Below are positions 21,415-61,700 of a stretch of 64,000 nt of DNA, piece after piece. Each line of letters starts with the position of its first letter. Positions within the stretch are counted from its first letter, which is position 1. The notes under the pieces were generated by a model. It did not search any database, was not told where the DNA came from, and saw nothing but the letters and a program-made list of their open reading frames with translations. The stretch is taken from the NCBI RefSeq assembly GCF_002904165.1, contig NZ_CVTD020000015.1, positions 248,001-312,000 of the forward strand. The letters run 5' to 3'. The DNA comes from Herbinix hemicellulosilytica. Its GTDB lineage: Bacteria; Bacillota; Clostridia; Lachnospirales; Lachnospiraceae. The position numbers and the translations under genes were made by a program.

Positions 21415-21435
21415 AACCAACTCCTGCTTTTTTAT

Positions 21436-44016: not shown

Positions 44017-44231
44017 TCCTCAATATTCTTCATACTTTTCATTTTATTTACAGCTTTATTAATTAGTGCTGCAAATTCTATAAACTCAGTTTCACTAAAA
44101 TTATACCTAATACGATTATTTTGAATATGAATATATCTCGGACCATTTTTAAATGTTGCTTTATTTAACTCTATTATTAAATTACAATCTCCAATTTTAA
44201 TTTCTTGTAAATTTTTTATTTTTTCGCCCAT
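44013..44231 (-). CDS. Small IHI-domain protein
   Basis: The 72-residue protein consists of one module (GPRYIHIQNNRIRYNFSETEFIEFAALINKAVNKM). It recurs as the N-terminal part of the 255-residue protein two genes downstream. No function is known to me. GAGG lies 6 nt before the ATG. It overlaps the end of wzx by 16 nt and the next gene by 4 nt, so it belongs to a compact translational block. The gene would only be transcribed past the IS element upstream. Confidence 0.6.
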   Translation of the reverse strand: MGEKIKNLQEIKIGDCNLIIELNKATFKNGPRYIHIQNNRIRYNFSETEFIEFAALINKAVNKMKSMKNIEE

Positions 44232-44608
44232 AATACACCTCTAAAAAAAGAATAAATTTCATTTTTAAACATAATACAAAAAATACCGATATTCAAAAAT
44301 AATACCAATAAATTACCACATAAATTTATTTTATTATAAAATATTGAATAAATTATAAAAGAGCATAATGGTATTATAAAATATAAATAACTAATTTTTA
44401 AATTAATATATTTCTTTAATAATAAAATACGTATTAATACTGATATTGAAAACCCTAAAGTTAGTGAAAAACTTGCTCCATTTACTCCATAAGGTCTAAT
44501 TAATAAATGACATAACAGTACATTAACTATAGCACCAGCCATAGTCGAAGTAAATACATGCTTTGTTAGCATTATACTACCGAAAATACTACCCAAAAAA
44601 CCATTTAA
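44216..44608 (-). pseudogene. wzx: wzx flippase, C-terminal fragment (cut by IS copy 1)
   Basis: About 129 residues beginning LNGFLGSIFGSIMLTKHVF, with four membrane segments, form the end of a Wzx-type lipid-linked oligosaccharide flippase. Joining it to 46056-47057 with one TAA target duplication removed gives ...TISVLNGFLGSIFG... in one frame and a protein of about 463 residues, the usual Wzx length. The ORF extends about 20 nt into the IS but has no function of its own. Confidence 0.9.
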
Positions 44609-44706
44609 TATAATGCCCCCCATTGTCAAGACAATTTTTCAGCTTTTCTAAGTTAGATTCTCCTTTCTTTAAATTTCTATATTTTACATTTATTTACTAT
44701 GTCTGA

Positions 44707-44800
44707 GGATGTCAAGGGCGAGCGTAAGCGAGTTCATCTTGACCCTTGACATCCAATACACATACATCATTTTTCTTTCCGGTCTGTCATGACAGACCGG
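44707..44800 (-). repeat. Hairpin pair in the noncoding tail of the IS
   Basis: Two inverted repeats lie between orfB and the IS end. GGATGTCAAGGG (44707-44718) pairs with CCCTTGACATCC (44743-44754). A perfect 22-nt palindrome lies at 44779-44800 (half-site CCGGTCTGTCA). The same pair occurs in copies 2 and 3. They may stop transcription into or out of the element. Confidence 0.8.
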
Positions 44801-44844
44801 CTGCCTTCCGGCGAGGACGGGGTTTGGGGCAGAGCCCCAAGGTT

Positions 44845-45792
44845 TTATACGACTGCCTGAAACTGTTTGTAAACCCCGAAATAATACTCTGCTGGCGTTT
44901 TGTAGTCTAACGACTGATGAGGTCTCCGGTTGTTATAATATTCAACATAATCCCTGGTAATCTGCCGGAGTTGGTGCCCTGTTTCGCAATCCTCAAGATA
45001 AAGCTTTTCCCACTTGTAAGATCGAAAGAAGCGCTCTATCCTTTGGTTATCCAGTGCTCTTCCTTTCCCATCCATTGAAATTTTTATATTGTTACTTTTT
45101 AGTAAGTTTATGTAATCATCACTGGTAAACTGTGAACCTTGGTCACTGTTCATAATTTCAGGTTTCCCGTACCGTTTGATCGCCTTTTTTATTGCCTCTA
45201 ATACAAATGTCCTTTCCAAAGTATTTGATAACTCAAATCCAACAATATACCGGGAATACCAGTCTATAATGGCTACCATGTACATAAAACCACGTTTCAT
45301 CCGGCAGTATGTTATGTCTATAGACCATACCTGGTTTGGATGATCAATATTCAAGCCTCTCAGCAAATACGGATACAAATACTTGCCATGCAGACGTTTG
45401 CTAAGATTAGGTCCAGGACAGAAACCATGGATCCCCATTTCCCTCATGTAACGCCGGGTTCGCTTTCGATTGATATGAATGTGATAATCCCGGTTCAGGA
45501 TATTCGTCATCCTGCGGTAGCCATACTCCGGATGAGCCGTGTAAATCTCATCAATAATACGCTTAATCAGGTATTCCTCATCATTTACTGGAACCGGCTT
45601 GTAGTAAAGGCTTGTACGGTTAATTCCCAACAGTTCGGCTTGCTTTGTGATGCTCAGTTTCTTTTCTTCTCTGTCAATCATCTTCATGCGGTCTTCACGG
45701 GACTTAGAGTCGGCCAGATTTTTTTTTAAGCCAGGCAACCTCATATGAAAGTTGTCCAATTTGCTTAAACAGTTCGTCCTTCTCCTTTTCAT
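44845..45792 (-). CDS. IS3-family transposase orfB (DDE domain), copy 1
   Basis: The frame has 315 codons. The productive part starts at about residue 25 (KKNLADSKSRED), reached by -1 frameshifting from orfA. It contains an HTH-like segment (LLGINRTSLYY), HTH_21 (YGYRRMTNILNRDY) and the rve integrase core with catalytic D in WSIDITY, D in NSDQGSQF and E in DNQRIERFFRS. The ORF is intact, so the copy is probably active. Its own upstream ATG lies inside orfA. Confidence 0.93.
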   Translation of the reverse strand: MKRRRTNCLSKLDNFHMRLPGLKKNLADSKSREDRMKMIDREEKKLSITKQAELLGINRTSLYYKPVPVNDEEYLIKRIIDEIYTAHPEYGYRRMTNILNRDYHIHINRKRTRRYMREMGIHGFCPGPNLSKRLHGKYLYPYLLRGLNIDHPNQVWSIDITYCRMKRGFMYMVAIIDWYSRYIVGFELSNTLERTFVLEAIKKAIKRYGKPEIMNSDQGSQFTSDDYINLLKSNNIKISMDGKGRALDNQRIERFFRSYKWEKLYLEDCETGHQLRQITRDYVEYYNNRRPHQSLDYKTPAEYYFGVYKQFQAVV

Positions 45793-45997
45793 ACGACTGT
45801 TTGACCTTCTCTACTTCATCAGTTTCCTTGCTGAAAACTCTGCCTGCATTGCTTATGAATTCTGCCTTCCAGCGACTTAGCTGGTTCGGATGTATTTCAT
45901 ATTCGGCAGCAATCTCATTCAGCGTTCTTTCTTCCCTTAAGACCTCAATCACTATTTTTGCTTTTTCTTCCGGTGTAAAATTTCTTCTCTTTTCCAT
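45704..45997 (-). CDS. IS3-family transposase orfA, copy 1
   Basis: The 97-residue DNA-binding protein has an HTH_Tnp_1 domain (RRNFTPEEKAKIVIEVLRE, LNEIAAEYEIHPNQLSRWK) followed by a leucine-zipper-like coiled coil (about 65-92). The end reads LKKKSGRL after the A9 slip site. The frameshift product OrfAB would have about 384 residues. Confidence 0.93.
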   Translation of the reverse strand: MEKRRNFTPEEKAKIVIEVLREERTLNEIAAEYEIHPNQLSRWKAEFISNAGRVFSKETDEVEKVKQSYEKEKDELFKQIGQLSYEVAWLKKKSGRL

Positions 45998-46055
45998 AGT
46001 TCCATTCTAACTTATTTTGGCCGTTTTGTCTGTCTTAATTTCTGGTATCATTATA

Positions 46056-47057
46056 TAATACACTAATAGTTATAGCTATAATACTTAATGGTATGTAATT
46101 AATTGCTTGATAATATTTCTCATCTACAACATAAGGAAACGCAAACCAGATAAATGCTATAAGTCCAATAGAAATTGGTGTTAATACTTTTATATAATTT
46201 CTTATAGCTTTACCAAATATTACACCTTTTTCCATGTTTGATCCTTTAATAGAAAATGCCATTTCCTGCCAAGCATATAAAAAACTTGTAGATACAAATG
46301 TCAAAATCATAGAAAATTTATTCGTAATAGCATACAAGCCATTCTGATGTAATCCTAATATATTTGTTACTGCTACTTTATTATAACTTGATAAAAACCA
46401 TACTCCTATATAATTTATACTTAATGGTAGAGCAAAGGCAAAAATTTTTTTTATTAATGAAATATTTATATTAATTAGTTTAAAATTCTTAAATAATTTC
46501 ATATTTAATTCTAAAATCAAAATTTGAATAATACTCGCAATTATATATGATAAAAAAAGTGAAGCATAGCCATAATTTAATACCTTTATGAAAATTACAT
46601 TAAATAAACCAGTAAATAAAGTTCCTATTACTCCACTTAATGCAAATAATCTACTCTTTGATAGACCTCTAGCAATATAGCTCATATATTGAACTATAGC
46701 ACTAAGTAAACCGTATAAAAATACTATAAATGCATTATCTATATTAACTATTAATGAAATTAACCAAAAACCAATTGTATATATTGTTGAAGAAATAATA
46801 AATATACACAAGCTATTATCAATAACTTTTTTATAATCTGTCTGCTCATAAATAAATCTTAAAGTAGCTCCACCTATATCCAAAAATATTATTAAAATTC
46901 CAATATTTAAGTATGTTATGATTATATCATAAGTCCCATAATCAGTTGGATTTAAATACTTAGTGTATAAAGGAACCAAAACAAGAGAAATCACTTTTGA
47001 TAAAGTATTCCCTAAAAAATATATTCCAGTTGATTTAAATAATTTTTTTAAATTCAT
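46056..47057 (-). pseudogene. wzx: wzx flippase, N-terminal fragment (cut by IS copy 1)
   Basis: The first 334 residues of a polysaccharide flippase begin FKSTGIYFLGNTLSKVISLVLVPLYTKYLNP, the typical Wzx/RfbX N-terminus, with about ten membrane segments. The frame runs six codons into the IS (YNDTRN) and stops. Wzx normally flips undecaprenyl-linked repeat units across the membrane. With the last segments missing, activity is unlikely. The gene is very AT-rich. Confidence 0.92.
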
Positions 47058-47075
47058 AGTCTATTCATTCCATTT

Positions 47076-48287
47076 CTACATATTATCTAGTATTCTTTCC
47101 AAGTCATTTTTCAATGTTGCAAAATCATGATTTTTTATTGATTGCAAGTAATTTTGCTTAACGATTTCTGTAGTATCTATTTCCCCTAATATTATTTTAT
47201 TTATTTTATTTGCAAGTTCAATATAATCCTTGTTTTTAAAAGTTATTGCCGTAATCCCATTTTTAGCAAATTCAGAAGTCTCAATAAAATCAGTTATTAA
47301 AATTGGTATTTTAGATATTCCCGCTTCGTATATTGGTCTTGATTGATGGGGTTTTGTTGATGGAAAAACCACTAAATCACAAGCTTTATAATATACTTCT
47401 GGATTTTTAGTTCTTTCTTTAAAAATAACTTTTTCTTTTAGATTATCTTTTTGATATATTTTATAAACAACATACTTTATATCTTTTTTTAATAATAGTC
47501 TTATTTTATCTTTAATGTTTTTATAATCTTTAAATCTTGGATGAATTAGACTATCAGTGTCATTTATAAATATAAGTTTTGCTGATTCATTAACATATTT
47601 CATTGCTTTCATAATTATATGAGCACCTTTTAATTTAGACATTCCGCCTAAATATAATACATATTTATAATTAGTATCTAAATTTAATTTTTTAATAGCT
47701 TCATCCTTCGATATACTAGTAAAAGAAGATACTTCAACTCTATCATATATCACTTCAGTTATAGCAGATATTTTTCCAGTTTCTTTTAAATCGTTTTTAG
47801 AAATAAATACAACTTTATCAAACCACTTAGATAATCCTAACTTAATAATTTTACTTCTTAAACCAATTAAGCCTTTTTGGTATGTTTCTCTATGAAAACA
47901 AATACTTTTAAGATTTAATTTTTTTATAATTCTGCCTAACCAAAATAAAGTCATTGAATTTATAATGACTATATCTGGTTTAGTATTTTTTATATAATTT
48001 TCCATAACTCTATAATCTTTAAGTATTTCTATAATATTTTTTAATGTTTTTATTGATAATGCGTGTTCAATACCACCATTATAATGATTAAAGATTTTTG
48101 GAGAATTTCTTAATGGAATTACTTCACAATCCTCATTTTTAAGGATTTCTATCATTTCACACGGATTATCTGGACATAATACAATTACTTTATATTTCTG
48201 CTTATCAATTGACTTAATTATATGTAATAAACTAACACCAGCTCCTCCTATTATCCCAGAATGATGAATAATTAATAGTCTTTTCAT
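47076..48287 (-). CDS. Glycosyltransferase family 4
   Basis: The 403-residue GT-B protein starts with LLIIHHSGIIGGAGVSLLHIIKSI, the acceptor-side glycine loop. In the C-terminal half it has VLYLGGMSKLKGAHIIMKAMKYV and the PVYYKACDLVVFPSTKPHQSRPIYEAG-like donor-binding motif with a conserved glutamate (about 320-335). It would add one sugar of the repeat unit on the cytoplasmic face. Donor and linkage cannot be told. GAGG lies about 12 nt before the ATG. It is 18 nt upstream of wzx. Confidence 0.88.
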   Translation of the reverse strand: MKRLLIIHHSGIIGGAGVSLLHIIKSIDKQKYKVIVLCPDNPCEMIEILKNEDCEVIPLRNSPKIFNHYNGGIEHALSIKTLKNIIEILKDYRVMENYIKNTKPDIVIINSMTLFWLGRIIKKLNLKSICFHRETYQKGLIGLRSKIIKLGLSKWFDKVVFISKNDLKETGKISAITEVIYDRVEVSSFTSISKDEAIKKLNLDTNYKYVLYLGGMSKLKGAHIIMKAMKYVNESAKLIFINDTDSLIHPRFKDYKNIKDKIRLLLKKDIKYVVYKIYQKDNLKEKVIFKERTKNPEVYYKACDLVVFPSTKPHQSRPIYEAGISKIPILITDFIETSEFAKNGITAITFKNKDYIELANKINKIILGEIDTTEIVKQNYLQSIKNHDFATLKNDLERILDNM

Positions 48288-48326
48288 ATCGAAATCGTCC
48301 TCTCATAATACAAGAGTTAAATCTTT

Positions 48327-49454
48327 TTAAAATCTACCCCAAACAAAACGATTTATATAATCAGTATAAGATATTATAATTCTTAAAACTTTATCTGATA
48401 CATTAGGAATGTTATAATCCTTAACAAGTCTTATAGTTCCTTTCTCTTGAGTTTCCAATACTTTCAATCCTTGAAGAATTCTTTCTTTTTTAAGCCCAAC
48501 CATCATTACAATGGCTTCTTCCATAGCTTCTGGTCTTTCATGGGCCTGTCTTATATTTAATGCTTTAAGTCCAAGTATAGATGCTTCTTCACTTATTGTT
48601 CCACTATCACTTAAAACAGCTTTTGCATTAATCTGCAGCTTGACATAATCATTAAAACCAAGAGGTTTTAAAGTTTTTATAAGAGGATTTAATTGGACTC
48701 CTTTAGCTTCAATCATTTTTCTTGTCCTCGGGTGAGTACTGAATATTAAAGGTAATTGATATATCTCTGCTACCGTATTAAGGCTATCAATTAAATCATT
48801 AAAATTAACTTCAGAGTTAATATTTTCTTCTCGATGTGCTGAAACTACAAAATATTTACCTACTTCAAGACCTAATCTTTCGAGAACATCTGATTTTTCT
48901 ATGTCTTCTCTTCTTGAATTTAGTACCTCATACATAGGACTTCCGGTCTTAATTATCCTGTCTGCCGGAATTCCTTCACTAATTAAATAATCTCTTGCAA
49001 TATCACTATATGTAAGGTTAATGTCAGCAATATGATCAACTATTTTTCTGTTAGTCTCCTCAGGGACTCTCTGATCAAAGCATCTGTTGCCTGCTTCCAT
49101 ATGAAAGATAGGAATATGTCTTCTCTTTGCAGCAATGGCACACAAACAACTATTTGTGTCTCCCAACACAAGAAATGCATCCGGTTTTACTTCATCCATT
49201 ATTGGATCGATTTTTATCAGAATATTTCCTATGGTTTCAACTGCCGTACCCGTAGCAGCGTTAAGGAAATAATCAGGTTTTCTAAGCTTTAAATCTTTAA
49301 AAAATATTTCATTTAATTCATAATCATAATTCTGTCCTGTATGAACAAGTATATGTTCAACTGCTTCTGACTCATCCAATTTGTTAATTACAGCAGAAAG
49401 TCTTATAATTTCCGGTCTTGTTCCCACAACAGTCATTACCTTTAATTTTTTCAT
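48327..49454 (-). CDS. capG: UDP-N-acetylglucosamine 2-epimerase, CapG/FnlC type
   Basis: The 375-residue non-hydrolysing epimerase has the family signatures VGTRPEIIRLSAVI, VHTGQNYDYELNEIFF, DTNSCLCAIAAKRR, FHMEAGNRCFDQRVPEETNR, SAHREENIN and LSDSGTISEEA. Because it directly follows capE and capF, it most likely performs the last step to UDP-L-FucNAc rather than making UDP-ManNAc. GGAGG lies 8 nt before the ATG, and the gap to capF is 3 nt. Confidence 0.92.
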   Translation of the reverse strand: MKKLKVMTVVGTRPEIIRLSAVINKLDESEAVEHILVHTGQNYDYELNEIFFKDLKLRKPDYFLNAATGTAVETIGNILIKIDPIMDEVKPDAFLVLGDTNSCLCAIAAKRRHIPIFHMEAGNRCFDQRVPEETNRKIVDHIADINLTYSDIARDYLISEGIPADRIIKTGSPMYEVLNSRREDIEKSDVLERLGLEVGKYFVVSAHREENINSEVNFNDLIDSLNTVAEIYQLPLIFSTHPRTRKMIEAKGVQLNPLIKTLKPLGFNDYVKLQINAKAVLSDSGTISEEASILGLKALNIRQAHERPEAMEEAIVMMVGLKKERILQGLKVLETQEKGTIRLVKDYNIPNVSDKVLRIIISYTDYINRFVWGRF

Positions 49455-49457
49455 AAG

Positions 49458-50567
49458 TTAAACCTCCATATAGTAAGTATCCGGCTTTTCCGGATCAAAT
49501 GGTTCATTGGCCCACATAATTGTAACCATATCCGTATCACCTAAATTTTCAATATTATGAGTGTATCCTGTCGGTATATCAATAATTTGCAGCTTATCTC
49601 CACTTACATAATATTCTATTACTTCATCTGAATCAATTTTTCTGAAACGTATAACTCCTTTACCGCTTACTACAAGGAACTTCTCAATTTTAGTATGATG
49701 CCAGTGATTACCTTTTGTTATACCGGGTTTAGATATATTAACCGAAACCTGTCCTCTGTCAGGTGTTCTGATAAACTCAGTAAATGACCCTCTGTTATCA
49801 ATATTCATTTTCAGTTCATAACCGAATTTATCTTCCGGCAAATAACTCAGATAAGTACTATATAGTTTTTTTGTAAAATCATCAGACATATCAGGTATTG
49901 ACAATTCTTCCCTGCTTTTTTTAAAAGAATATAATAATCGTACGATTTCTCCCAGCGAAACTCTATATACTATCGGAACTTCACAAAAATAACCTTTTCT
50001 GTTTTCTTTCCCTTCGAGAGCATTTATTAATTCATTCACAACATCATCTATATATACTAAACTAAGTACAACATTGGGATCATTTACTGTAATAGGCAGA
50101 TCACGGGCGATATTGTAGCAAAACGTAGCAATTGCACTGTTATAGTTGGGTCTGCACCATTTACCGAATACATTAGGAAATCTATATATTAATATTTTAG
50201 CCCCTGTCTCCTTGCTATAATTTATAAGTATATCTTCACCTGCTTTCTTACTTTTCCCATACAGGTTATCCAGTTCTGCCTGAATGGATGAAGATATCAT
50301 TATCGGACAGTTGTTTTTATGATTTTTTAGAATATCCAGAAGAGTTGATATAAAACCGGCATTCCCTTTCATATAATCATCCTGATCCTTAGGCCGGTTT
50401 ATCCCAGCAAGATGAAAGATAAAATCAGCTTCCCTGCAGTATTCCTCTAATTCATAAATATCCGAATCAATATCGTATTCATATATATCCGTATACTTTC
50501 TGTTTTTTAGTTCAGCTACAAGATTTTTGCCTATAAACCCTTTTGCTCCTGTTACAAGTATTTTCAT
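49458..50567 (-). CDS. capF: CapF/FnlB-type UDP-sugar reductase with C-terminal cupin
   Basis: The 369-residue bifunctional enzyme has an N-terminal NAD(P) SDR domain (ILVTGAKGFIGKNLVAELK, HLAGINRP, SYK-type active site YGKSKKAGE). Its C-terminal cupin has GNHWHHTKIEKFLVVSGKG and metal-binding histidines. It acts in the second step of UDP-L-FucNAc synthesis, as S. aureus CapF does: epimerisation then reduction of the keto sugar. ATG 50567 gives the canonical N-terminus; the frame opens 9 codons earlier without a ribosome binding site. Confidence 0.92.
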   Translation of the reverse strand: MKILVTGAKGFIGKNLVAELKNRKYTDIYEYDIDSDIYELEEYCREADFIFHLAGINRPKDQDDYMKGNAGFISTLLDILKNHKNNCPIMISSSIQAELDNLYGKSKKAGEDILINYSKETGAKILIYRFPNVFGKWCRPNYNSAIATFCYNIARDLPITVNDPNVVLSLVYIDDVVNELINALEGKENRKGYFCEVPIVYRVSLGEIVRLLYSFKKSREELSIPDMSDDFTKKLYSTYLSYLPEDKFGYELKMNIDNRGSFTEFIRTPDRGQVSVNISKPGITKGNHWHHTKIEKFLVVSGKGVIRFRKIDSDEVIEYYVSGDKLQIIDIPTGYTHNIENLGDTDMVTIMWANEPFDPEKPDTYYMEV

Positions 50568-50590
50568 ATCCCATGTCTGCCTTTCATAGT

Positions 50591-51631
50591 TCATTTAATG
50601 TAGAAGTTATTTTTTGAGTTATATGCTTCTAGTTCATTTCTTACATATTCAAGTGATAAAAGTTTTTCTTTAATCTGCTCAACGTTTAACCTTTCGGTAT
50701 TATCAGAATTATATTCCACATCTATTGATAATTTTTCAGATCCTTCAACAAAATACTTATCGTAATTTAAGTCTCTTTTATCTGCGGGTACTCTGAAGAA
50801 ATTACCCATATCCACAGCCTTAATATATTCTTCTTTTGTAAGAAGTGTTTCGTATCTCTTTTCCCCGTGACGGGTACCTATAATTTTTATTTCATTATCA
50901 GCATTAAACAGTTCTTTTATTGCTTGTGCAAGATCTCCTATTGTTGAAGCAGGTGCCTTTTGAACAATAATATCACCTGTTTCAGCGTTTTCAAACGCAT
51001 ATACTACAAGTTCCACTGCTTCTTCTAAACTCATTAAAAACCGTGTCATATTCGGATTGGTCACGGTTAATGGTTGTCCATTCTTTATTTGCTCTATAAA
51101 TAATGGAATAACAGACCCTCTTGAGGCCATGACATTACCATATCTTGTTCCGCAAATAAGAGTTTTATCCGGATCAACAGTTTTTGACTTAGCTATAAAC
51201 ACTTTTTCCATCATTGCTTTTGAAATTCCCATGGCATTTATGGGATAAGCAGCCTTATCCGTAGAAAGACATACAACTTTCCTTACACCGTACTCAATAG
51301 CTGCAGTTAACACATTATCTGTACCTATAATATTGGTTTTAACTGCTTCTAACGGGAAAAACTCACATGAAGGGACCTGTTTAAGAGCTGCAGCATGAAA
51401 TATATAATCAACTCCGTGCATGGCATTTTTTACCGACTGAATATCTCTTACATCCCCTATATAAAACTTTAGCTTATCATTTTTATAAAATCTTCTCATG
51501 TCATCCTGTTTTTTCTCATCACGAGAAAATATACGAATTTCTTTTATATGCGTACTTAAAAATCTTTTAGTTACAGCATTACCAAATGAACCAGTACCTC
51601 CGGTTATTAATAAAACTTTATTATCAAACAT
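50591..51631 (-). CDS. capE: CapE/FnlA-type UDP-GlcNAc 4,6-dehydratase/5-epimerase
   Basis: The 346-residue SDR starts the UDP-L-FucNAc pathway from UDP-GlcNAc. It has the NAD site ITGGTGSFGNAVTKRFL, IFHAAALKQVPSCEFFP, and VCLSTDKAAYPINAMGISKAMME, where the usual YxxxK tyrosine is replaced by methionine as in CapE. C-terminal CxxT-type FnlA features follow. ATG 51631 is 5 nt after GGAGG; the ATG at 51643 overlaps it. It overlaps the end of wzy by 8 nt. Confidence 0.93.
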   Translation of the reverse strand: MFDNKVLLITGGTGSFGNAVTKRFLSTHIKEIRIFSRDEKKQDDMRRFYKNDKLKFYIGDVRDIQSVKNAMHGVDYIFHAAALKQVPSCEFFPLEAVKTNIIGTDNVLTAAIEYGVRKVVCLSTDKAAYPINAMGISKAMMEKVFIAKSKTVDPDKTLICGTRYGNVMASRGSVIPLFIEQIKNGQPLTVTNPNMTRFLMSLEEAVELVVYAFENAETGDIIVQKAPASTIGDLAQAIKELFNADNEIKIIGTRHGEKRYETLLTKEEYIKAVDMGNFFRVPADKRDLNYDKYFVEGSEKLSIDVEYNSDNTERLNVEQIKEKLLSLEYVRNELEAYNSKNNFYIK

Positions 51632-52238
51632 TTTTTCCTCCATTATATAATAAATTATATTGATTTTTATTTATACTTAAATATTGCTTATAATTGCTAA
51701 ATCCATAAGCAAATAATACATTTGTTATAAGACTAAATGAAAGATTTGATCCAATAAATAATACATTATATAATATAAATATTATAAATGAATTAAATAA
51801 ATTTCGTCCTATTAACTTACAAAGTTTACATATTCCTATCATCCATAAAATTATAAATATCAAACCATATTGTGCTAATTGAATTAATAGTGTATTAGTA
51901 TTATGTTCAGTATAAAATCCAAGTATTTGGTATGCTAAAGGAGCAAAATTATATTCAACATTTGATAAACCAACTCCCCAAATAGGTGATTCCATAAAAA
52001 GTCTTAAATTAACCAGAATAGAAGCTATTCTAGCACTAGTTGAATTTCTTGTACTATCAAACAATTTGCCAAAAACAGAACCGTACCCTTCTTTAAATAA
52101 TAAGTCTGTAAAAAGGCTTAAATAAGTAAATGAAAGAATAAATATCATTATAAAAGCAATCTTTATATTCCTATCACTTCTAAAATTACTTTTCTTATTT
52201 GCATATAAAAAAATAATAAACATTAAAGCTATATATCC
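51624..52238 (-). pseudogene. wzy: wzy polymerase, C-terminal fragment (cut by IS copy 2)
   Basis: About 203 residues begin YIALMFIIFLYANKK, with a large extracytoplasmic loop (LRLFMESPIWGVGLSNVEYNF, TEHNTNTLLIQLAQYG) typical of O-antigen polymerases and ligases, then membrane segments. Joined to 53686-54369 with one TCC duplication removed, the frame reads ...FSTTGYIALMF..., giving an intact polymerase of about 431 residues. Confidence 0.9.
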
Positions 52239-52296
52239 TATAATGATACCAGAAATTAAGACAGACAAAACGGCCAAAATAAGTTAGAATGGAACT

Positions 52297-52590
52297 ATGG
52301 AAAAGAGAAGAAATTTTACACCGGAAGAAAAAGCAAAAATAGTGATTGAGGTCTTAAGGGAAGAAAGAACGCTGAATGAGATTGCTGCCGAATATGAAAT
52401 ACATCCGAACCAGCTAAGTCGCTGGAAGGCAGAATTCATAAGCAATGCAGGCAGAGTTTTCAGCAAGGAAACTGATGAAGTAGAGAAGGTCAAACAGTCG
52501 TATGAAAAGGAGAAGGACGAACTGTTTAAGCAAATTGGACAACTTTCATATGAGGTTGCCTGGCTTAAAAAAAAATCTGGCCGACTCTAA
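52297..52590 (+). CDS. IS3-family transposase orfA, copy 2
   Basis: Identical in sequence to the copy 1 orfA product. The start ATG is 58 nt from the IS tip. Here it is transcribed against the polysaccharide locus. Confidence 0.93.
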   Translation: MEKRRNFTPEEKAKIVIEVLREERTLNEIAAEYEIHPNQLSRWKAEFISNAGRVFSKETDEVEKVKQSYEKEKDELFKQIGQLSYEVAWLKKKSGRL

Positions 52591-53449
52591 GTCCCGTGAA
52601 GACCGCATGAAGATGATTGACAGAGAAGAAAAGAAACTGAGCATCACAAAGCAAGCCGAACTGTTGGGAATTAACCGTACAAGCCTTTACTACAAGCCGG
52701 TTCCAGTAAATGATGAGGAATACCTGATTAAGCGTATTATTGATGAGATTTACACGGCTCATCCGGAGTATGGCTACCGCAGGATGACGAATATCCTGAA
52801 CCGGGATTATCACATTCATATCAATCGAAAGCGAACCCGGCGTTACATGAGGGAAATGGGGATCCATGGTTTCTGTCCTGGACCTAATCTTAGCAAACGT
52901 CTGCATGGCAAGTATTTGTATCCGTATTTGCTGAGAGGCTTGAATATTGATCATCCAAACCAGGTATGGTCTATAGACATAACATACTGCCGGATGAAAC
53001 GTGGTTTTATGTACATGGTAGCCATTATAGACTGGTATTCCCGGTATATTGTTGGATTTGAGTTATCAAATACTTTGGAAAGGACATTTGTATTAGAGGC
53101 AATAAAAAAGGCGATCAAACGGTACGGGAAACCTGAAATTATGAACAGTGACCAAGGTTCACAGTTTACCAGTGATGATTACATAAACTTACTAAAAAGT
53201 AACAATATAAAAATTTCAATGGATGGGAAAGGAAGAGCACTGGATAACCAAAGGATAGAGCGCTTCTTTCGATCTTACAAGTGGGAAAAGCTTTATCTTG
53301 AGGATTGCGAAACAGGGCACCAACTCCGGCAGATTACCAGGGATTATGTTGAATATTATAACAACCGGAGACCTCATCAGTCGTTAGACTACAAAACGCC
53401 AGCAGAGTATTATTTCGGGGTTTACAAACAGTTTCAGGCAGTCGTATAA
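52502..53449 (+). CDS. IS3-family transposase orfB, copy 2
   Basis: Identical to copy 1 orfB, with the D-D-E catalytic residues intact. It overlaps orfA by 89 nt and is expressed through the A9 slip. Confidence 0.93.
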   Translation: MKRRRTNCLSKLDNFHMRLPGLKKNLADSKSREDRMKMIDREEKKLSITKQAELLGINRTSLYYKPVPVNDEEYLIKRIIDEIYTAHPEYGYRRMTNILNRDYHIHINRKRTRRYMREMGIHGFCPGPNLSKRLHGKYLYPYLLRGLNIDHPNQVWSIDITYCRMKRGFMYMVAIIDWYSRYIVGFELSNTLERTFVLEAIKKAIKRYGKPEIMNSDQGSQFTSDDYINLLKSNNIKISMDGKGRALDNQRIERFFRSYKWEKLYLEDCETGHQLRQITRDYVEYYNNRRPHQSLDYKTPAEYYFGVYKQFQAVV

Positions 53450-53685
53450 AACCTTGGGGCTCTGCCCCAAACCCCGTCCTCGCCGGAAGGCAGCCGGTCT
53501 GTCATGACAGACCGGAAAGAAAAATGATGTATGTGTATTGGATGTCAAGGGTCAAGATGAACTCGCTTACGCTCGCCCTTGACATCCTCAGACATAGTAA
53601 ATAAATGTAAAATATAGAAATTTAAAGAAAGGAGAATCTAACTTAGAAAAGCTGAAAAATTGTCTTGACAATGGGGGGCATTATA

Positions 53686-54369
53686 TCCAGTTGTCGAAAA
53701 TGTTGTTAATAATGCTATTAAATAAATAATTTGTGTTTTTAATTTAGGATTATGAATAATAAACATTTGAAATAAAAGAGCAACAATTAAGTATAATTGA
53801 AATACTCCCGGTTCCCTAAATAAACCGTAATTTCTATGAAATCCTCCATGATTTACACTAATATTAGTTAATAGTAAAGTGTAAAAAGCATTATTGGCGC
53901 TATTATATATAATAGGCAAATACTTTAATATTTGACTAAAACTAATAGATATAAAATAACCAATTAATGAAAATACAGCAAGTACTTCCATTATTTTATC
54001 ATATAATATAGCAAATCTATGTAATGGTATTTTTAATGATAAAAACATACCAATAACTAAAATACCACATCTATAAAAATAGCCAAATCTGAAATCATTA
54101 TTAATCAAACTTGTAAACATTATTAAAATTGATAAAGTTATTGTGATAAAAAATAAATTAGTATTTACTTTTTTCTTTTTTATCAAATAGTTTAATATAA
54201 GATAAAAAAATAATAAAATAATTATACAGTACTTAATTTTTATAAATTGAGTGTTTTTATTTGTACCAAATAAAATAGTATCATCTGATATTACTATAGT
54301 AATTAAAACAATTAATAAATCAATATAATCTTTTAATTTATTTTTTACATTAAAATTAACTGATTCCAC
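53686..54369 (-). pseudogene. wzy: wzy polymerase, N-terminal fragment (cut by IS copy 2)
   Basis: The first 228 residues (GTG start, GGGTGA 6 nt upstream) hold six or seven membrane segments of an O-antigen-polymerase-like protein. The segment ends HGGFHRNYGLFREPGVFQLY, a loop rich in conserved R, H and E that is typical of Wzy-type enzymes. The frame runs 15 codons into the IS and stops. Wzy links flipped repeat units into polymer outside the membrane. Confidence 0.9.
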
Positions 54370-54382
54370 AGTTCTTCACCCA

Positions 54383-55609
54383 TCATAATTTGCGTAATAA
54401 ATCGTATAGTTTACTGCCTTGAACTATATTATTCTTTTTATCTATAACAAATTTTTTTGCATCATTACCCTGCTTTTCTAAATAAGTTTCGGGTTTACTT
54501 AAAATGCTAATTATAGCATTTGCTATACCCTCAGGTGTTTCTATATCTATAAAATTTAAAAATGGATAATAATCTTTAGGTATACCCGCTAATTTTGTAG
54601 TTAATACTGGCGTACCCGTACTCATGTATTCAATCGTCTTAGAAGGAAAAGAGTATTTTGTATATTCTTCATTTGAAGGTCTTGGATTAATCAATAAATC
54701 AGCTTCTGTTTCTTTTTGAATTATTGTTTCTAAACTAACAAGACCATAGTATTTTACATTCTTAGGTAATTCACCCCTTTGCATAAGTTTTTCAACATAT
54801 TCACCTTCACCGTATAAATGAATTTCAATATTTTTTTCAGCTAAATAAATAGCAGATTTAATTAATGATTCGATACCAAATTTTTTATGTAGTCCACCTG
54901 CATATACAACTACTTTTTTTGTTTTTTCCCTCTTACTTAACAAATCATTTTTTTCTATATTATGTGCTTCTACTAAACCCTCTATAATAATATAAGGCTT
55001 ATTTTTAATATTACATATCGAATTCATATACTCTGTTAAAAAAACATATCCATCAAATCCTGATATTATAAGATCAATTAATTTTCTCTTAATACAATTT
55101 TTAATTTTAAAAAAATTCGTACTTTCTTTTTTCTCTATTGTAGCCATATACTTTGGTATATCTGTTAATATTCCAATAGCTCTAATTTTTAATAACCTTG
55201 AAATTAATAAACCAGATAATGCAACATCATAAACTAATGGATCACATATTATATATGTATCTTTTCTTTTATTTTTATCTTTTAATATTTTAAAAGATAA
55301 TATAAAAGAATTAATCATGACCAAAATATTTTTAATAGCTGTAAAATTAACAAATCCCGGGTATAAAATTGTATGTTTATCAGTAATTTTTTCTTTAATC
55401 TTCTTAAATAATTTTTTTTCACAATTTACTTGAGCAACTGGCATTGATGTAACTTGTATTAGTTCATTTATATTTTTGTTTTGTAATAACCCTTTAACTA
55501 ATAGACCAAAATATTTTTGAGATGGATTTAATAAATCCCTTTTCTTTATCTTATTTAATTCATTATACATTTTATCAGAACAAGTATTTGAATATAAAAT
55601 AATTCTCAA
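54383..55609 (-). CDS. Glycosyltransferase family 4
   Basis: The 408-residue GT-B protein has VVVYAGGLHKKFGIESLIKSAIYL, IHLYGEGEYVEKL, VKYYGLVSLETIIQ, and the donor-site stretch ADLLINPRPSNEEYTKYSFPSKTIEYMSTGTPVL with its conserved glutamate. The N-terminal half is rich in K and I and may touch the membrane. The start is TTG with GAGG 10 nt upstream. It is 13 nt upstream of wzy. The sugar donor is unknown. The gene is very AT-rich. Confidence 0.87.
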   Translation of the reverse strand: MRIILYSNTCSDKMYNELNKIKKRDLLNPSQKYFGLLVKGLLQNKNINELIQVTSMPVAQVNCEKKLFKKIKEKITDKHTILYPGFVNFTAIKNILVMINSFILSFKILKDKNKRKDTYIICDPLVYDVALSGLLISRLLKIRAIGILTDIPKYMATIEKKESTNFFKIKNCIKRKLIDLIISGFDGYVFLTEYMNSICNIKNKPYIIIEGLVEAHNIEKNDLLSKREKTKKVVVYAGGLHKKFGIESLIKSAIYLAEKNIEIHLYGEGEYVEKLMQRGELPKNVKYYGLVSLETIIQKETEADLLINPRPSNEEYTKYSFPSKTIEYMSTGTPVLTTKLAGIPKDYYPFLNFIDIETPEGIANAIISILSKPETYLEKQGNDAKKFVIDKKNNIVQGSKLYDLLRKL

Positions 55610-55629
55610 ATTAATAACACCTCTATTAA

Positions 55630-56592
55630 CTATTTTAATTTAGATTTTAAATAAGACATAAATTTTAATCCTATAAAAAATTTATGTTTTATCATAAATA
55701 ACACAACTTTTTGATGAAATGCGAAATATTTAATATAATTATTCTTTGACCAATTAGGATATTTTCCGTTATATTTATTAATTTGGTATAATATATCATG
55801 GCGTTTTTTTTCTAGGGATATCAAAAGCATTATAGTAGAATATAACACTTCTTTTATAAAAATAGCCTCAACTTCATTAGGATATTGAAATTTCAGTTTT
55901 TCTTCAACAATGTTAAATGCTGAAACAGCATAAATGGTATTTTGATAATTTATATTATGTACAATAGATTCCTCATGTTTTACATAATAATAAAGAGGTT
56001 TTTTCAAATAAAATATTTCTTTGCTTGAAGATAAAGCCAATTTATTAAATACCATATCTTCGAATCTCTGTAACTGAGGAAACCTAATTCCATTTTGTTC
56101 GATATTTTCTCTTTTATATACTTTACAACATACACTCCCTGTAGAATTTGCTATAGCAGTTTTAATATCTACAAATCCTTCAGGTTGTTTAGGTATTGAT
56201 ACCCCATATTTCTTATTACTACCTTTTTGATGATAATAGTCAAAAATTACACAATCGCATTTATTTTTTTCAATGATTAAATTTATATCAAATAGGCAAT
56301 TCAAATCTATATAGTCATCACTATCTAAAAAGATAATATATTGACCTACTGCTTCTGATAAGCCTATATTTCTAGCTATTCCGGGTCCCATATTATTTCT
56401 AGATCTTAATACTTTAATATTTAAATTACTTGATTCTTTATATTTTATAATATTTTCATAAGACTTATCTGTAGAGCTATCATCAATAATTATAACCTCA
56501 AAGTCCTTAAAAATTTGATTTTCTAAGTTAAAAAAATAAGATTTCATCAAATGGAATGAATTAAAGACTGGTGTTATAATTGAAAATTTCAT
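55630..56592 (-). CDS. Glycosyltransferase family 2
   Basis: The 320-residue GT-A protein has FSIITPVFNS, VIIIDDSSTDKSYENI, NMGPGIARNIGLSEAVGQYIIFLDSDDYI (the DxD metal site), and CCKVYKRENI with RFEDMVFN acidic residues. It transfers a sugar from a nucleotide donor to the lipid-linked intermediate. ATG 56592 has GGAGG 5 nt upstream; the frame opens at 56604. It overlaps the propeller gene by 32 nt. Confidence 0.92.
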   Translation of the reverse strand: MKFSIITPVFNSFHLMKSYFFNLENQIFKDFEVIIIDDSSTDKSYENIIKYKESSNLNIKVLRSRNNMGPGIARNIGLSEAVGQYIIFLDSDDYIDLNCLFDINLIIEKNKCDCVIFDYYHQKGSNKKYGVSIPKQPEGFVDIKTAIANSTGSVCCKVYKRENIEQNGIRFPQLQRFEDMVFNKLALSSSKEIFYLKKPLYYYVKHEESIVHNINYQNTIYAVSAFNIVEEKLKFQYPNEVEAIFIKEVLYSTIMLLISLEKKRHDILYQINKYNGKYPNWSKNNYIKYFAFHQKVVLFMIKHKFFIGLKFMSYLKSKLK

Positions 56593-57850
56593 TTTTACCT
56601 CCATACGAGTCTAATGATATTGTATATAAACCTCGTTTTCCTTCAAAAACTGCATCAAAACATATTTTATTTCCAGCTCTATTCCATCTAGGATGTAAAT
56701 CACATCGTACCTCATTATCATATTTAAAAGGTACAAAAACTCTTGCTATTCTTTTAATATTATTCTCTTTAATAAGATAAATAGATGATAATCTAGATCT
56801 ATCAGGATAAGTATCTGTGACCACCATACTACCATCCGGCGAATAACTAGGATGCCCATCGGTTATTAGTTCTGGCCATAAATGCTGGAATTCTGTAGAT
56901 TTATCCTTCATTAGAAAATATCCATAACCTATATTTTTCTTATAAGCAAAAGCTAAAATTTCGATATTTGACTTCCAATAGCAATGGGAAACCATCTTAT
57001 CGTCACTTAAGTTAAATAAATCATTTCCATCAATATTGGCAACTATTAATCTAGTATATTTCTTATTATTTTTTATCCATCTATGTAATACCAAAAAGCG
57101 ATTTCCAGATGGATTTAACATTATATGATTTACTTTATGTTCAGCTCCGATCATATTATTTGATGTTTCAAAATTTACCAAATCAGTGTATTTTAATATA
57201 GGAGTAGATTCATTTGTATCTATGTCTATTTTCCAAATACATGGTTTATCAGGTATCTTTTCATTTGCTGTTATATCGGGTAAATTTGAATACCCATATC
57301 CCTTTCTTAGTCTATGTAATCTCGAAAAATCTAGTGTAAGAGCAAATTTACCGTTCATTGAAACACTATAGACAGGCATTGATAATACCTTTTCTTCTCC
57401 TGACTTTATGTTTATTATGACAGAGCAATAATTACCATCACGAAAATCATTAAATATTATATTTTCTGTAAAATCTGGACCTAACCATTGTAACATACAC
57501 CCTTGTTGAACATTCCAAGTTCTTGTTGTACCAATTACTTTTATTTCATTATTATTAAAAGTATCAATTAATATTATTTCTGCAGGATCATTTGGTGCAA
57601 CAGATTTTGTTGTGTCCTTAACTCTTAAACAAAGCATATATCTGTCAGATGCATCCCAAGGTGACTTATCATAATAACCAAAAAAATATTCATATCCATC
57701 ACTCGGTGTAACACTAATAATTTCACCTTCATACTTTATCTTAGGAGATAGTAAATACAAAGACCTTTGATAAACACGTTTTACCACTTTTTTTATAAAA
57801 GGATATTTTGATAAAGCTGTACTAATATAGTTTTCAATATTTTTTACCAT
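56561..57850 (-). CDS. Beta-propeller-like protein of the polysaccharide locus
   Basis: The 429-residue protein has a short basic N-terminus and then repeated blade-like units (YEYFFGYYDKSPWDASDRYMLCLRV, GHPSYSPDGSMVVTDTYPDRS, HPRWNRAGNKICFDAVFEGKRGLYTI), similar to WD40/TolB-type repeats. No signal peptide is visible, so it is probably cytoplasmic. Proteins of this type occur in polysaccharide gene clusters with no proven job; they could be lyase-like or binding propellers. GAGG lies 7 nt before the ATG. Confidence 0.7.
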   Translation of the reverse strand: MVKNIENYISTALSKYPFIKKVVKRVYQRSLYLLSPKIKYEGEIISVTPSDGYEYFFGYYDKSPWDASDRYMLCLRVKDTTKSVAPNDPAEIILIDTFNNNEIKVIGTTRTWNVQQGCMLQWLGPDFTENIIFNDFRDGNYCSVIINIKSGEEKVLSMPVYSVSMNGKFALTLDFSRLHRLRKGYGYSNLPDITANEKIPDKPCIWKIDIDTNESTPILKYTDLVNFETSNNMIGAEHKVNHIMLNPSGNRFLVLHRWIKNNKKYTRLIVANIDGNDLFNLSDDKMVSHCYWKSNIEILAFAYKKNIGYGYFLMKDKSTEFQHLWPELITDGHPSYSPDGSMVVTDTYPDRSRLSSIYLIKENNIKRIARVFVPFKYDNEVRCDLHPRWNRAGNKICFDAVFEGKRGLYTISLDSYGGKNEIFNYNTSL

Positions 57851-57865
57851 AATGATACCTCTAAA

Positions 57866-58181
57866 TTATGTCTTATACTTTTTTCGTAAATATTTATAAG
57901 AAATTAATTTAACTAAAGATTTTGGTGCTAAAAATAAAACAAGTTGACCTATAACTACATAGGCTAAATCTAATAAGTTACAGTGTCCTCTTCTCCATAT
58001 TTTATACTGAACATAAATATAACTTTTACAGTATGTCCAACTTTTTCTTCGTTTGATATTATCTTCATTTGACCTAAACAACACCAAAGATTTATCAATA
58101 TTGAGAGCATAGCATCCATTATTCAACATTCGTGAAAAAAGATCTAAATCTTGTTTTCTTTTCATTTTCCCATAACCACCA
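57866..58181 (-). pseudogene. Family 2 glycosyltransferase, C-terminal fragment (cut by IS copy 3)
   Basis: The piece GGYGKMKRKQDLDLFSRMLNNG and the following 80 residues form the end of a GT2 enzyme. The acidic QDLDLF block is the equivalent of the family's EDYDLW-type general base region. Rejoined to 59629-60149 with one CCA duplication removed, the frame reads ...VIRCGGYGKMKRKQDLDL..., about 277 residues in all. Confidence 0.9.
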
Positions 58182-58417
58182 TATAATGCCCCCCATTGTC
58201 AAGACAATTTTTCAGCTTTTCTAAGTTAGATTCTCCTTTCTTTAAATTTCTATATTTTACATTTATTTACTATGTCTGAGGATGTCAAGGGCGAGCGTAA
58301 GCGAGTTCATCTTGACCCTTGACATCCAATACACATACATCATTTTTCTTTCCGGTCTGTCATGACAGACCGGCTGCCTTCCGGCGAGGACGGGGTTTGG
58401 GGCAGAGCCCCAAGGTT

Positions 58418-59365
58418 TTATACGACTGCCTGAAACTGTTTGTAAACCCCGAAATAATACTCTGCTGGCGTTTTGTAGTCTAACGACTGATGAGGTCTCC
58501 GGTTGTTATAATATTCAACATAATCCCTGGTAATCTGCCGGAGTTGGTGCCCTGTTTCGCAATCCTCAAGATAAAGCTTTTCCCACTTGTAAGATCGAAA
58601 GAAGCGCTCTATCCTTTGGTTATCCAGTGCTCTTCCTTTCCCATCCATTGAAATTTTTATATTGTTACTTTTTAGTAAGTTTATGTAATCATCACTGGTA
58701 AACTGTGAACCTTGGTCACTGTTCATAATTTCAGGTTTCCCGTACCGTTTGATCGCCTTTTTTATTGCCTCTAATACAAATGTCCTTTCCAAAGTATTTG
58801 ATAACTCAAATCCAACAATATACCGGGAATACCAGTCTATAATGGCTACCATGTACATAAAACCACGTTTCATCCGGCAGTATGTTATGTCTATAGACCA
58901 TACCTGGTTTGGATGATCAATATTCAAGCCTCTCAGCAAATACGGATACAAATACTTGCCATGCAGACGTTTGCTAAGATTAGGTCCAGGACAGAAACCA
59001 TGGATCCCCATTTCCCTCATGTAACGCCGGGTTCGCTTTCGATTGATATGAATGTGATAATCCCGGTTCAGGATATTCGTCATCCTGCGGTAGCCATACT
59101 CCGGATGAGCCGTGTAAATCTCATCAATAATACGCTTAATCAGGTATTCCTCATCATTTACTGGAACCGGCTTGTAGTAAAGGCTTGTACGGTTAATTCC
59201 CAACAGTTCGGCTTGCTTTGTGATGCTCAGTTTCTTTTCTTCTCTGTCAATCATCTTCATGCGGTCTTCACGGGACTTAGAGTCGGCCAGATTTTTTTTT
59301 AAGCCAGGCAACCTCATATGAAAGTTGTCCAATTTGCTTAAACAGTTCGTCCTTCTCCTTTTCAT
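58418..59365 (-). CDS. IS3-family transposase orfB, copy 3
   Basis: Identical to the orfB products of copies 1 and 2; catalytic D-D-E residues are present. Confidence 0.93.
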   Translation of the reverse strand: MKRRRTNCLSKLDNFHMRLPGLKKNLADSKSREDRMKMIDREEKKLSITKQAELLGINRTSLYYKPVPVNDEEYLIKRIIDEIYTAHPEYGYRRMTNILNRDYHIHINRKRTRRYMREMGIHGFCPGPNLSKRLHGKYLYPYLLRGLNIDHPNQVWSIDITYCRMKRGFMYMVAIIDWYSRYIVGFELSNTLERTFVLEAIKKAIKRYGKPEIMNSDQGSQFTSDDYINLLKSNNIKISMDGKGRALDNQRIERFFRSYKWEKLYLEDCETGHQLRQITRDYVEYYNNRRPHQSLDYKTPAEYYFGVYKQFQAVV

Positions 59366-59570
59366 ACGACTGTTTGACCTTCTCTACTTCATCAGTTTCC
59401 TTGCTGAAAACTCTGCCTGCATTGCTTATGAATTCTGCCTTCCAGCGACTTAGCTGGTTCGGATGTATTTCATATTCGGCAGCAATCTCATTCAGCGTTC
59501 TTTCTTCCCTTAAGACCTCAATCACTATTTTTGCTTTTTCTTCCGGTGTAAAATTTCTTCTCTTTTCCAT
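59277..59570 (-). CDS. IS3-family transposase orfA, copy 3
   Basis: Identical to the orfA products of copies 1 and 2, with the HTH and coiled coil intact. Confidence 0.93.
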   Translation of the reverse strand: MEKRRNFTPEEKAKIVIEVLREERTLNEIAAEYEIHPNQLSRWKAEFISNAGRVFSKETDEVEKVKQSYEKEKDELFKQIGQLSYEVAWLKKKSGRL

Positions 59571-59628
59571 AGTTCCATTCTAACTTATTTTGGCCGTTTT
59601 GTCTGTCTTAATTTCTGGTATCATTATA

Positions 59629-60149
59629 CCACAACGAATAACATCCGATTTTTTAAACATTACTGTCGGATGATTAAATGGGCTTCTACGCTTAATAAAT
59701 TTGTGAATCTCATAATTTGAAGTCGGTACTATCCTAGAAGATATTACATTTTTAGGATCATCATAAAATTCATCAATCATAGTTCCTACAATACTTAACT
59801 TAGGGTTTTTAATAAACTCTTTAACTTGTATTTCACACCGTTCTGGCAACGAAATATCATCTGTATCCATCCTAGCAACTAGTTCATTTTTACAATATTT
59901 TAACCCTTCATCTAGAGCTTTTCCCAACCCTACGTTTTCTTTAAGAGGTACTATATTAAATAAGCCAGGATACTTGTATATGTAATGTTCAATTATATTT
60001 TCTAAATCTTTTGTTAATTCACCATCTTTTACAATGACAATTTCATCTGGTCTAAGTGTCTGATTAATCATACTTTCTATACTTTGAATAAAATATTCTG
60101 GTTTTTCTTTTTTATATATTGACATTAATACACTATATTTAAGTTGCAT
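59629..60149 (-). pseudogene. Family 2 glycosyltransferase, N-terminal fragment (cut by IS copy 3)
   Basis: About 173 residues begin YSVLMSIYKKEKPEYFIQSIESMINQ, with IVIVKDGELT, NVGLGKALDEGLKYCKNELVARMDTDDISLPER (DxD site) and FNHPTVMFKKSDVI. It resembles amylovoran/EPS GT2 enzymes. The frame continues 16 codons into the IS and stops. Without the C-terminal acidic block the enzyme is probably inactive. The 5' end overlaps the reductase gene by 25 nt. Confidence 0.92.
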
Positions 60150-61012
60150 TCATTTTCACACTCCGCAAAAACAATAGATTCTCTAAAACCTCTAATCCGA
60201 TAATTACCTTTATTATATTCACTCAAATTCATATCATATACCAAATTACCAAACACCTTATTAACTACATTTATTCCGTACATCATTTTTATAATCGGAT
60301 TAAATACTTTCGTTAATCTTATCTTCTTTCCATGAACCTCCGCTATCAACCTAACCATCTCGCTGGTTTTTACATATTCAGCATTTTGAGGAAAGAACAA
60401 TCCTCTTTCTTCATTATCTATCATCAATCTGATAAACTCACACAGATTGTCTATATGAAGCATACTCCGTTCATTTTCGATATCAGGAAATATAGGAAGT
60501 ATCTGTGCTGCTTTTGATAACTTTGGATAATTACCTTTAGACCCTTTGCCATAAATCATCGGTGGCCTAAGTATAACTATTTTAAAATTTTCATCCTCCA
60601 AAGCTTTTAATCCTATTTCTGCCTGAAGCTTGCTATCCCCATAAAAATTACTGGGAGAAGGGATAGTGTTTCTGTCAATTACTCTTTTTCCCTTGCTGCT
60701 GTCACCATAAACAATTATACTACTCATGAAAATGAACTGTTTTACACCTTCAGCTTTGGCTTTTTTAGCTGTTTCTATAGTTAAATCTCTGTTTACACGG
60801 TAATATAAATCTTTTAATTTCGGATCAGATGATACATGAGCTATACCGGCTACATGAAATACAACATCATAATAAGAAAAGTCCTTATCACGCCAGGAGC
60901 CGTCTTTCATATCCACTGTATCAACTTTATAACGGTCCGGATATTGTGATACCCACCGTTCAAAACTTGTCCCAATATAACTGTTAGCTCCCGTTATAAG
61001 AACTTTTTTCAT
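60125..61012 (-). CDS. NAD-dependent epimerase/4-ketoreductase of sugar nucleotides
   Basis: The 295-residue SDR has VLITGANSYIGTSFERWV, VVFHVAGIAH, MSSIIVYGD, the catalytic YGDSKLQAE (YxxxK) and LRPPMIYGKG. It resembles WbpK/WbpV-like reductases or epimerases that act after a WbpM-type dehydratase, which is encoded two genes upstream. It may make UDP-QuiNAc or UDP-D-FucNAc as the first sugar for the transferase next door; that is inference. It overlaps the sugar transferase gene by 4 nt. Confidence 0.85.
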   Translation of the reverse strand: MKKVLITGANSYIGTSFERWVSQYPDRYKVDTVDMKDGSWRDKDFSYYDVVFHVAGIAHVSSDPKLKDLYYRVNRDLTIETAKKAKAEGVKQFIFMSSIIVYGDSSKGKRVIDRNTIPSPSNFYGDSKLQAEIGLKALEDENFKIVILRPPMIYGKGSKGNYPKLSKAAQILPIFPDIENERSMLHIDNLCEFIRLMIDNEERGLFFPQNAEYVKTSEMVRLIAEVHGKKIRLTKVFNPIIKMMYGINVVNKVFGNLVYDMNLSEYNKGNYRIRGFRESIVFAECENECNLNIVY

Positions 61013-61647
61013 TCCGCTGTTCTCTCCCTATTTATAACATTCTTTTGCTTCTCTAAAGTACCGGTACCGCCTTCTACCACACCGTCACTCCTAAGTACCG
61101 ATATAATGGTCCCGAAGAAACATTTAATGTCCATTTTAAAACCTATATTTTTTACATATTCTCCGTCAAGCCTTGACTTTTCCTCAATGGACAGTTCATC
61201 TCTGCCATGAATTTGTGCCCAGCCTGTAAGCCCGGGTCTGATATTGTTGGCACCATATTTATCTCTTTCCTCAATTAAATCAAATTGATTCCATAAAGCA
61301 GGCCTGGGCCCTATAATACTCATATGACCTGCCAATATATTGAAAATCTGAGGAAGTTCATCAAGACTTGTCTTTCTTAAGAATTTTCCTACTCTGGTAA
61401 TCCATTGCTCGGGATTTTCAAGCAAATGAGTAGGTACATCTTTAGGCGTATCAATCCTCATGGTTCTGAATTTTAAAATATAAAAATGACTTTTATTTAT
61501 GCCTACCCGTTTCTGTTTGAAAAAGATAGGACCTTTTGAATCAAGCTTTATAGCAGCAATAATTATCAGAAACAACGGTAGCAGCAACACACATGCCAAT
61601 AATGAAAGAACTATATCAAGAATCCTTTTAATCTTTATATAAACCAT
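61009..61647 (-). CDS. Initiating sugar-phosphate transferase (monotopic PGT)
   Basis: The 212-residue small phosphoglycosyltransferase loads the first sugar phosphate onto undecaprenyl phosphate. It has a re-entrant N-terminal hydrophobic helix (ILDIVLSLLACVLLLPLFLIIIA), then GPIFFKQKRVG, FYILKFRTM, RKTSLDELPQIFNIL (catalytic D-E) and IIGPRPALW, GLTGWAQIHGRD. ATG 61647 is 5-6 nt after GAGGGA. The small form, without extra membrane segments, is the PglC/WecA-unrelated type often paired with N-acetylated di- or deoxy sugars. Confidence 0.93.
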   Translation of the reverse strand: MVYIKIKRILDIVLSLLACVLLLPLFLIIIAAIKLDSKGPIFFKQKRVGINKSHFYILKFRTMRIDTPKDVPTHLLENPEQWITRVGKFLRKTSLDELPQIFNILAGHMSIIGPRPALWNQFDLIEERDKYGANNIRPGLTGWAQIHGRDELSIEEKSRLDGEYVKNIGFKMDIKCFFGTIISVLRSDGVVEGGTGTLEKQKNVINRERTAE

Positions 61648-61700
61648 ACTATCCCTCATCTATCATGCTTGATATAACTGAAAAATCAAATATACAACTT

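Follow-up and report, generated by a model that had tools for sequence, protein, structure and literature searches.

Three insertions in one polysaccharide locus

The stretch of DNA analysed here, referred to as the window, comprises 64,000 nucleotides of Herbinix hemicellulosilytica (assembly GCF_002904165.1, contig NZ_CVTD020000015.1, positions 248,001 to 312,000) and carries a polysaccharide locus of the Wzx/Wzy-dependent type, in which three genes are each interrupted by a copy of one and the same insertion sequence (IS). Sequence comparison shows the three copies to be identical letter for letter over 1447 bp, as the initial annotation of the window had anticipated from their equal length and identical translations; no other copy lies in the window, and all three strike genes of a single pathway, which the annotation had likewise recognised. 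Copy 1 (44609–46055, minus strand) is inserted in the wzx flippase gene and flanked by the target duplication TTA at 44606–44608 and 46056–46058; copy 2 (52239–53685, plus strand) lies inside a probable wzy polymerase gene, with TCC at 52236–52238 and 53686–53688; copy 3 (58182–59628, minus strand) splits a family-2 glycosyltransferase gene, with TGG at 58179–58181 and 59629–59631.

The three interrupted genes are all read from the minus strand. The first part of the flippase (46056–47057, about 334 amino acids) matches PF01943 with an E-value of 4.5e-12, while its last part (44216–44608, about 130 amino acids) is an open frame which alone has no Pfam match; the two halves compare with 472–480 amino acids in five matches from four other genomes. 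For the probable polymerase it is the last part (51624–52238, about 204 amino acids) that is recognised, by PF04932 (Wzy_C, E-value 1.9e-6), with 28.2 bits and thus below the Pfam cut-off of 31.7; the first part (53686–54369, about 228 amino acids) matches no Pfam family and finds weak matches in three of the 33 other genomes of the genus. Two of these matches lie in frames of 432 and 426 amino acids, which serve as the measure for the two halves, and the third is in a short frame interrupted by a stop. The glycosyltransferase is divided into a first part of about 174 amino acids (59629–60149; PF00535, E-value 2.4e-24) and a last part of about 103 (57866–58181), an open frame assigned by eye; its relatives have 284, 284 and 315 amino acids at 28–30% identity, these being the three matches with nearly full coverage among the best ten listed. 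In each of the three genes the parts together come close to the length found in relatives.

The rest of the locus consists of long open frames, the outermost being a Wzz-like chain-length gene (38.1 kb) and the initiating transferase (61.7 kb). The initiating sugar transferase (61009–61659, minus strand) is intact, matching positions 1–178 of the 179 of PF02397 with 209 bits. Also on the minus strand are a group-1 glycosyltransferase (47076–48287; PF00534), two further glycosyltransferases (54383–56604; PF00534 and PF00535) and, at 48327–51643, three nucleotide-sugar genes for an Epimerase_2 protein, a WbcJ-like reductase and an FnlA-like dehydratase, the latter two with scores below the NCBIfam cut-offs; together these three probably serve the synthesis of UDP-L-FucNAc. 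The Wzz-like gene at the low end (38062–39096, minus strand) is assigned by PF02706. A second Wzz-like chain-length gene lies at 20374–21420, about 17 kb away from it; the similarity was noted by eye, and the profile scan covered 38062–39096 only. For three scanned genes, at 41.6, 42.6 and 56.6 kb, Pfam gave either no family or at most a weak repeat model. The gene set of a Wzx/Wzy-dependent locus is thus complete, with initiating transferase, glycosyltransferases, flippase, polymerase (by a match below the cut-off) and chain-length protein.

Because flippase, polymerase and one transferase are broken, the locus is very probably dead and its polymer very probably not made. The genome holds four matches to initiating transferases, three of them outside this locus, so that several polysaccharide loci are probably present. 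The best match to the flippase among the 33 other genomes of the genus has only 35% identity, and by this comparison the locus is strain-specific and accessory.

The element and its copies

The element encodes OrfA, of 97 amino acids, and OrfB, in a frame of 315 amino acids; the two frames overlap, with orfB in frame +1. OrfB matches PF00665 (E-value 4.2e-26) as well as PF13276, and a helix-turn-helix in OrfA was assigned by eye; with this motif, the rve/DDE core of OrfB and the overlapping frames the element has the hallmarks of the IS3 family. An A9T run at element position 329 is of the kind required for +1 slippage, by which orfA and orfB are predicted to be joined, and both ends of the element begin TATAATG, that is, with 5'-TA rather than TG. 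IS1447 (IS120) of Clostridium thermocellum is described as an element of 1447 bp with imperfect inverted repeats starting 5'-TA, duplications of 3–4 bp and an A9T run (PMC6211511); the present element is like it in length, ends and 3-bp duplications, in having orfA and orfB with A9T at the same position, and in its cellulolytic host. It differs from that element in about 15% of its sequence and in its distribution here, with eight identical copies of which three share a polysaccharide locus. To 17 copies in a second host genome, G073, treated below, it has 85% DNA identity along its entire length. Judged by these sequence features, the element is a member of the IS1447 group of the IS3 family and not a new element; the same report counts nine copies of the group in H. 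hemicellulosilytica DSM 29228 (PMC6211511).

In the whole genome (3,036,611 bp on 35 contigs) the element is found eight times in full and once as an end remnant (196 bp, 84% identity); three of the eight full copies lie in the window and the other five elsewhere. All eight are identical letter for letter, and every one is flanked by a perfect 3-bp target duplication, those outside the window being TAA, CAA, TAT, GCA and TAC. Since each copy has its own matching duplication, each represents a simple insertion event of its own. A strict target sequence was rejected, as no two of the eight duplications are the same. Zero differences across eight copies place the divergence per site below about 0.0003, and the identical copies with their private duplications support the earlier suggestion that the insertions are recent. 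Short reads and in silico gap closure were used to assemble the sister genomes of the study (PMC5684752); some of the perfect agreement between repeat interiors may therefore have arisen in assembly, which does not apply to the private duplications at the ends.

The right end of the element carries TTGACA and the left end TATAAT, which in a circular form with 3 bp between the ends would be separated by 18 bp, a spacing that would suit a junction promoter; junction promoters play a role in the circular forms of this IS family. Just 3' of orfB each copy in the window contains a 22-base hairpin-like motif, TTGGGGCTCTGCCCCAAACCCC, at 44819–44840 (minus), 53454–53475 (plus) and 58392–58413 (minus). 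Outside the element the motif is also present in further genomes of the order, as in stretches L019, L029 (two copies), L018, L020 and L022, and an Rfam search of 38–64 kb gave no family match, the motif included. Plasmid and phage collections, searched in near mode, gave no match.

Among 60 other genomes only one, G020, from another species of the genus, showed anything beyond a short motif match. Its sequence (L017, 1501–1625) is 100% identical to bases 1–125 of the element, runs up to the contig end and lies, as judged by eye, where a CheR-like gene begins. A recent exchange of the element between species is possible on this evidence. The search scored the best six candidates per genome and found six of the nine known copies in genome G000, so that misses are possible. 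No relative with the same three insertions was seen among the 60 genomes, none of which is a second genome of the species.

With respect to orientation, copies 1 and 2 as well as copies 2 and 3 are inverted pairs, as the initial annotation had pointed out in proposing that the DNA between them could be inverted; no single inversion is fixed in the assembly. Copies 1 and 3 form a direct repeat, across which recombination would remove about 13.6 kb. Inversion or other rearrangement between copies was rejected for this assembly, since the duplications on the two sides of every copy still match; neither excision nor inversion nor the deletion between copies 1 and 3 was seen in it.

Placement of the copies in the genome

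Under uniform insertion the probability that any three of eight copies fall within 10,679 bp, as they do in the locus, is 0.002, a post hoc figure calculated from insertion points with the elements removed. If insertion is tolerated in just a fraction of the genome, it rises to 0.007 for one half, 0.02 for 30%, 0.045 for 20% and 0.16 for 10% of the genome. Counted differently, five of the eight copies lie no more than 25 kb from another one (P 0.005 under uniform placement).

The three sites of the locus are AT-rich, their 2-kb flanks having guanine-plus-cytosine (GC) contents of 0.22, 0.25 and 0.29; equally low values occur in 0, 0 and 0.3%, respectively, of 380 sample windows, which were taken from 20 hand-chosen stretches on six contigs and are thus not a random draw. 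GC content is 36.8% in a 400-kb sample of the genome, and the other five sites are ordinary at the 2-kb scale. A preference for AT-rich DNA as the whole cause is unsupported, as two of the eight sites are in the top 14% of the sample by their 100-bp GC. Five of the eight copies sit inside genes, as judged by eye: besides the three described here, a metF-like gene (L011, 8362–9041 and 10489–10678) and a gene for a solute-binding protein (L014, 7718–8724 and 10172–10439) are broken. Tolerated insertions into genes are thus common in this strain.

Clustering in a second host

Genome G073, a single closed contig of 3,843,301 bp with 17 complete IS1447 copies and a split one, fits C. thermocellum ATCC 27405, for which 18 copies of IS1447 have been reported (PMC6211511). 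There, 15 of the 18 copies lie no more than 25 kb from another where 3.6 would be expected, a count reached in none of 20,000 simulations; seven copies lie in about 34 kb, four in about 36 kb, and two further groups are pairs (stretches L167–L172). Duplications of 3–4 bp are found at 15 of the 17 complete copies, which are therefore mostly separate insertions. The six stretches that hold these groups contain, by eye, other transposases, a recombinase, and transporter, radical-SAM and hypothetical genes; no polysaccharide pathway was seen in them by eye, without a family search.

A triple as tight as the one in the window is found in 26% of all subsets of eight taken from the 18 copies, and in 14% if two copies lying 95 bp apart are reduced to one. 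IS256-like elements of the same genome, two kinds pooled, are clustered more weakly (11 of 23 neighboured versus 5.8 expected, P 0.04; Fisher P 0.025 for the comparison with IS1447). In C. thermocellum DSM1313, for which positions were taken as locus tags from a published table, clustering has a P of 0.002 to 0.02, and after two adjacent pairs are collapsed one of 0.11 to 0.33, which is not significant; the conclusion drawn here is based on the closed genome G073. Clustering is thus a habit of the IS1447 group, stronger in G073 than in the window, and not special to this locus.

How the locus may have died

It seems rather probable that a first insertion made this AT-rich, strain-specific locus dispensable and that it then became a sink for the IS1447-group element. 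Ordinary transposition would have struck the one accessory locus three times; one insertion would have inactivated it, later ones would have been neutral, and short-range hopping perhaps contributed to the pile-up. Of the three alternatives raised in the initial annotation, namely repeated selection for loss, a reversibly mobile element and decay after a first event, the last fits best. For Nostoc azollae it has been proposed that regions of superfluous genes accumulate insertion sequences (PMC4369082), and this model fits the present case, as the locus is strain-specific and the genome has three other matches to initiating transferases. In Streptococcus pneumoniae, loss or depletion of the flippase is reported to be lethal and to be relieved by depleting the initiating transferase (PMC8561386). 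As loss of flippase or polymerase beside a working initiating transferase would be expected to be lethal or costly, and this transferase is intact here, the insertion in the glycosyltransferase gene (copy 3) may have preceded the other two, unless the locus was already silent. Selection for the first loss of the polymer is possible.

Several points weigh against this account. An insertion in a glycosyltransferase gene might also be costly while the initiating transferase is intact, since Salmonella strains with an incomplete repeat unit are reported to tie up lipid carrier as well (PMC11784914); the argument on order would thus hold only if the broken glycosyltransferase acts early. Seven other rve and five Mutator transposase matches in the genome all lie outside the locus, so that its being a general sink is not borne out, although 12 elements found with two Pfam models have little power. 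In G073, IS256-like copies lie near the smaller IS1447 groups, whereas the group of seven has none within 120 kb, so that tolerance alone may be insufficient to explain the clustering. The variants shared between some of the 17 complete copies there give no sign of local hopping: one is found in two copies of the same cluster and in a distant one, another in two copies far apart. Finally, the order, age and neutrality of the insertions rest on a single isolate of the species.

That loss of the polymer was itself selected, for example as an escape from phages, by an insertion in wzx or wzy that tied up lipid carrier, and that the insertion in the glycosyltransferase gene was then selected as a suppressor, we consider rather unlikely. 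It would be in line with phage-resistant derivatives of Tetragenococcus halophilus that carry IS insertions in cps genes, among them a wzy::IS derivative with delayed growth (PMC10269466), with Klebsiella variants reported to have lost their capsule through IS transposition, deletion or point mutation in the cps locus (PMC7590720), and with the pneumococcal rescue mentioned above; however, the suppressor target in the pneumococcal work was the initiating transferase, which is intact here, and incomplete repeat units would tie up the carrier too. Nor is repeated selection, as the initial annotation had suggested it, needed to account for the clustering, since in the other host IS1447-group copies are clustered no less strongly, and there no polysaccharide genes were recognised by eye around them. 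A narrower version, in which one element acted as mutator and then as suppressor, a late-step insertion (wzy or wzx) being favoured, its carrier cost relieved by the one in the glycosyltransferase gene and the third being free, is an unlikely course of events; if true, the three copies would be the fossil of a selected, ordered cascade.

Local hopping, in which the element transposes preferentially near its donor so that the three copies derive from one another regardless of gene function, would explain clustering in two hosts and has been described for some other insertion sequences (PMC4369082). We nonetheless consider it decidedly unlikely; the shared single-base variants of G073 do not sort by cluster, and the eight copies of the present genome, being identical, have no informative variants. 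Chance placement of a uniformly inserting element is very improbable in view of the probabilities given above for the triple and for the neighboured copies, even if there are only eight copies, their grouping was noticed post hoc and the triple loses significance when just 10% of the genome tolerates insertion. A reversible switch of the surface, by excision or inversion, can hardly be credited, in spite of the two inverted pairs and of Acinetobacter baumannii, in which scarless excision of a single copy of ISAba13 is reported to restore the capsule at low frequency (PMC9038732). Three separate precise excisions would be required, the family is reported to transpose by a copy-and-paste route (PMC6211511), and an inversion would merely exchange the halves of different genes and could not rejoin one gene; moreover, all three duplications match, and the proposal of a switchable surface thus finds no support.

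Decay of a locus made dispensable by a first insertion would show how a surface-polymer locus dies in a thermophile from a biogas plant. The clustering of IS1447-group copies in two hosts is a new measured point, and it follows from it that several insertions in one pathway are not in themselves evidence of selection.

Comparison with known systems

Judged by titles and the openings of abstracts, the papers listed in literature searches describe neither this locus nor clustering of IS1447, which does not prove their absence from print. As in the capsule loci reported to be inactivated by insertion sequences in Klebsiella, Tetragenococcus and Acinetobacter, where an insertion in cps genes abolishes or changes the polymer, the element has entered genes for a surface polysaccharide; there, however, the insertions are reported singly and for known conditions, whereas here three insertions by one element stand in one genome and are known from its sequence. 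The gathering of copies in a region of superfluous genes is shared with the proposal for Nostoc azollae (PMC4369082); that organism is a plant symbiont under genome reduction, while H. hemicellulosilytica is a biogas-plant isolate in which the rest of the locus is apparently intact.

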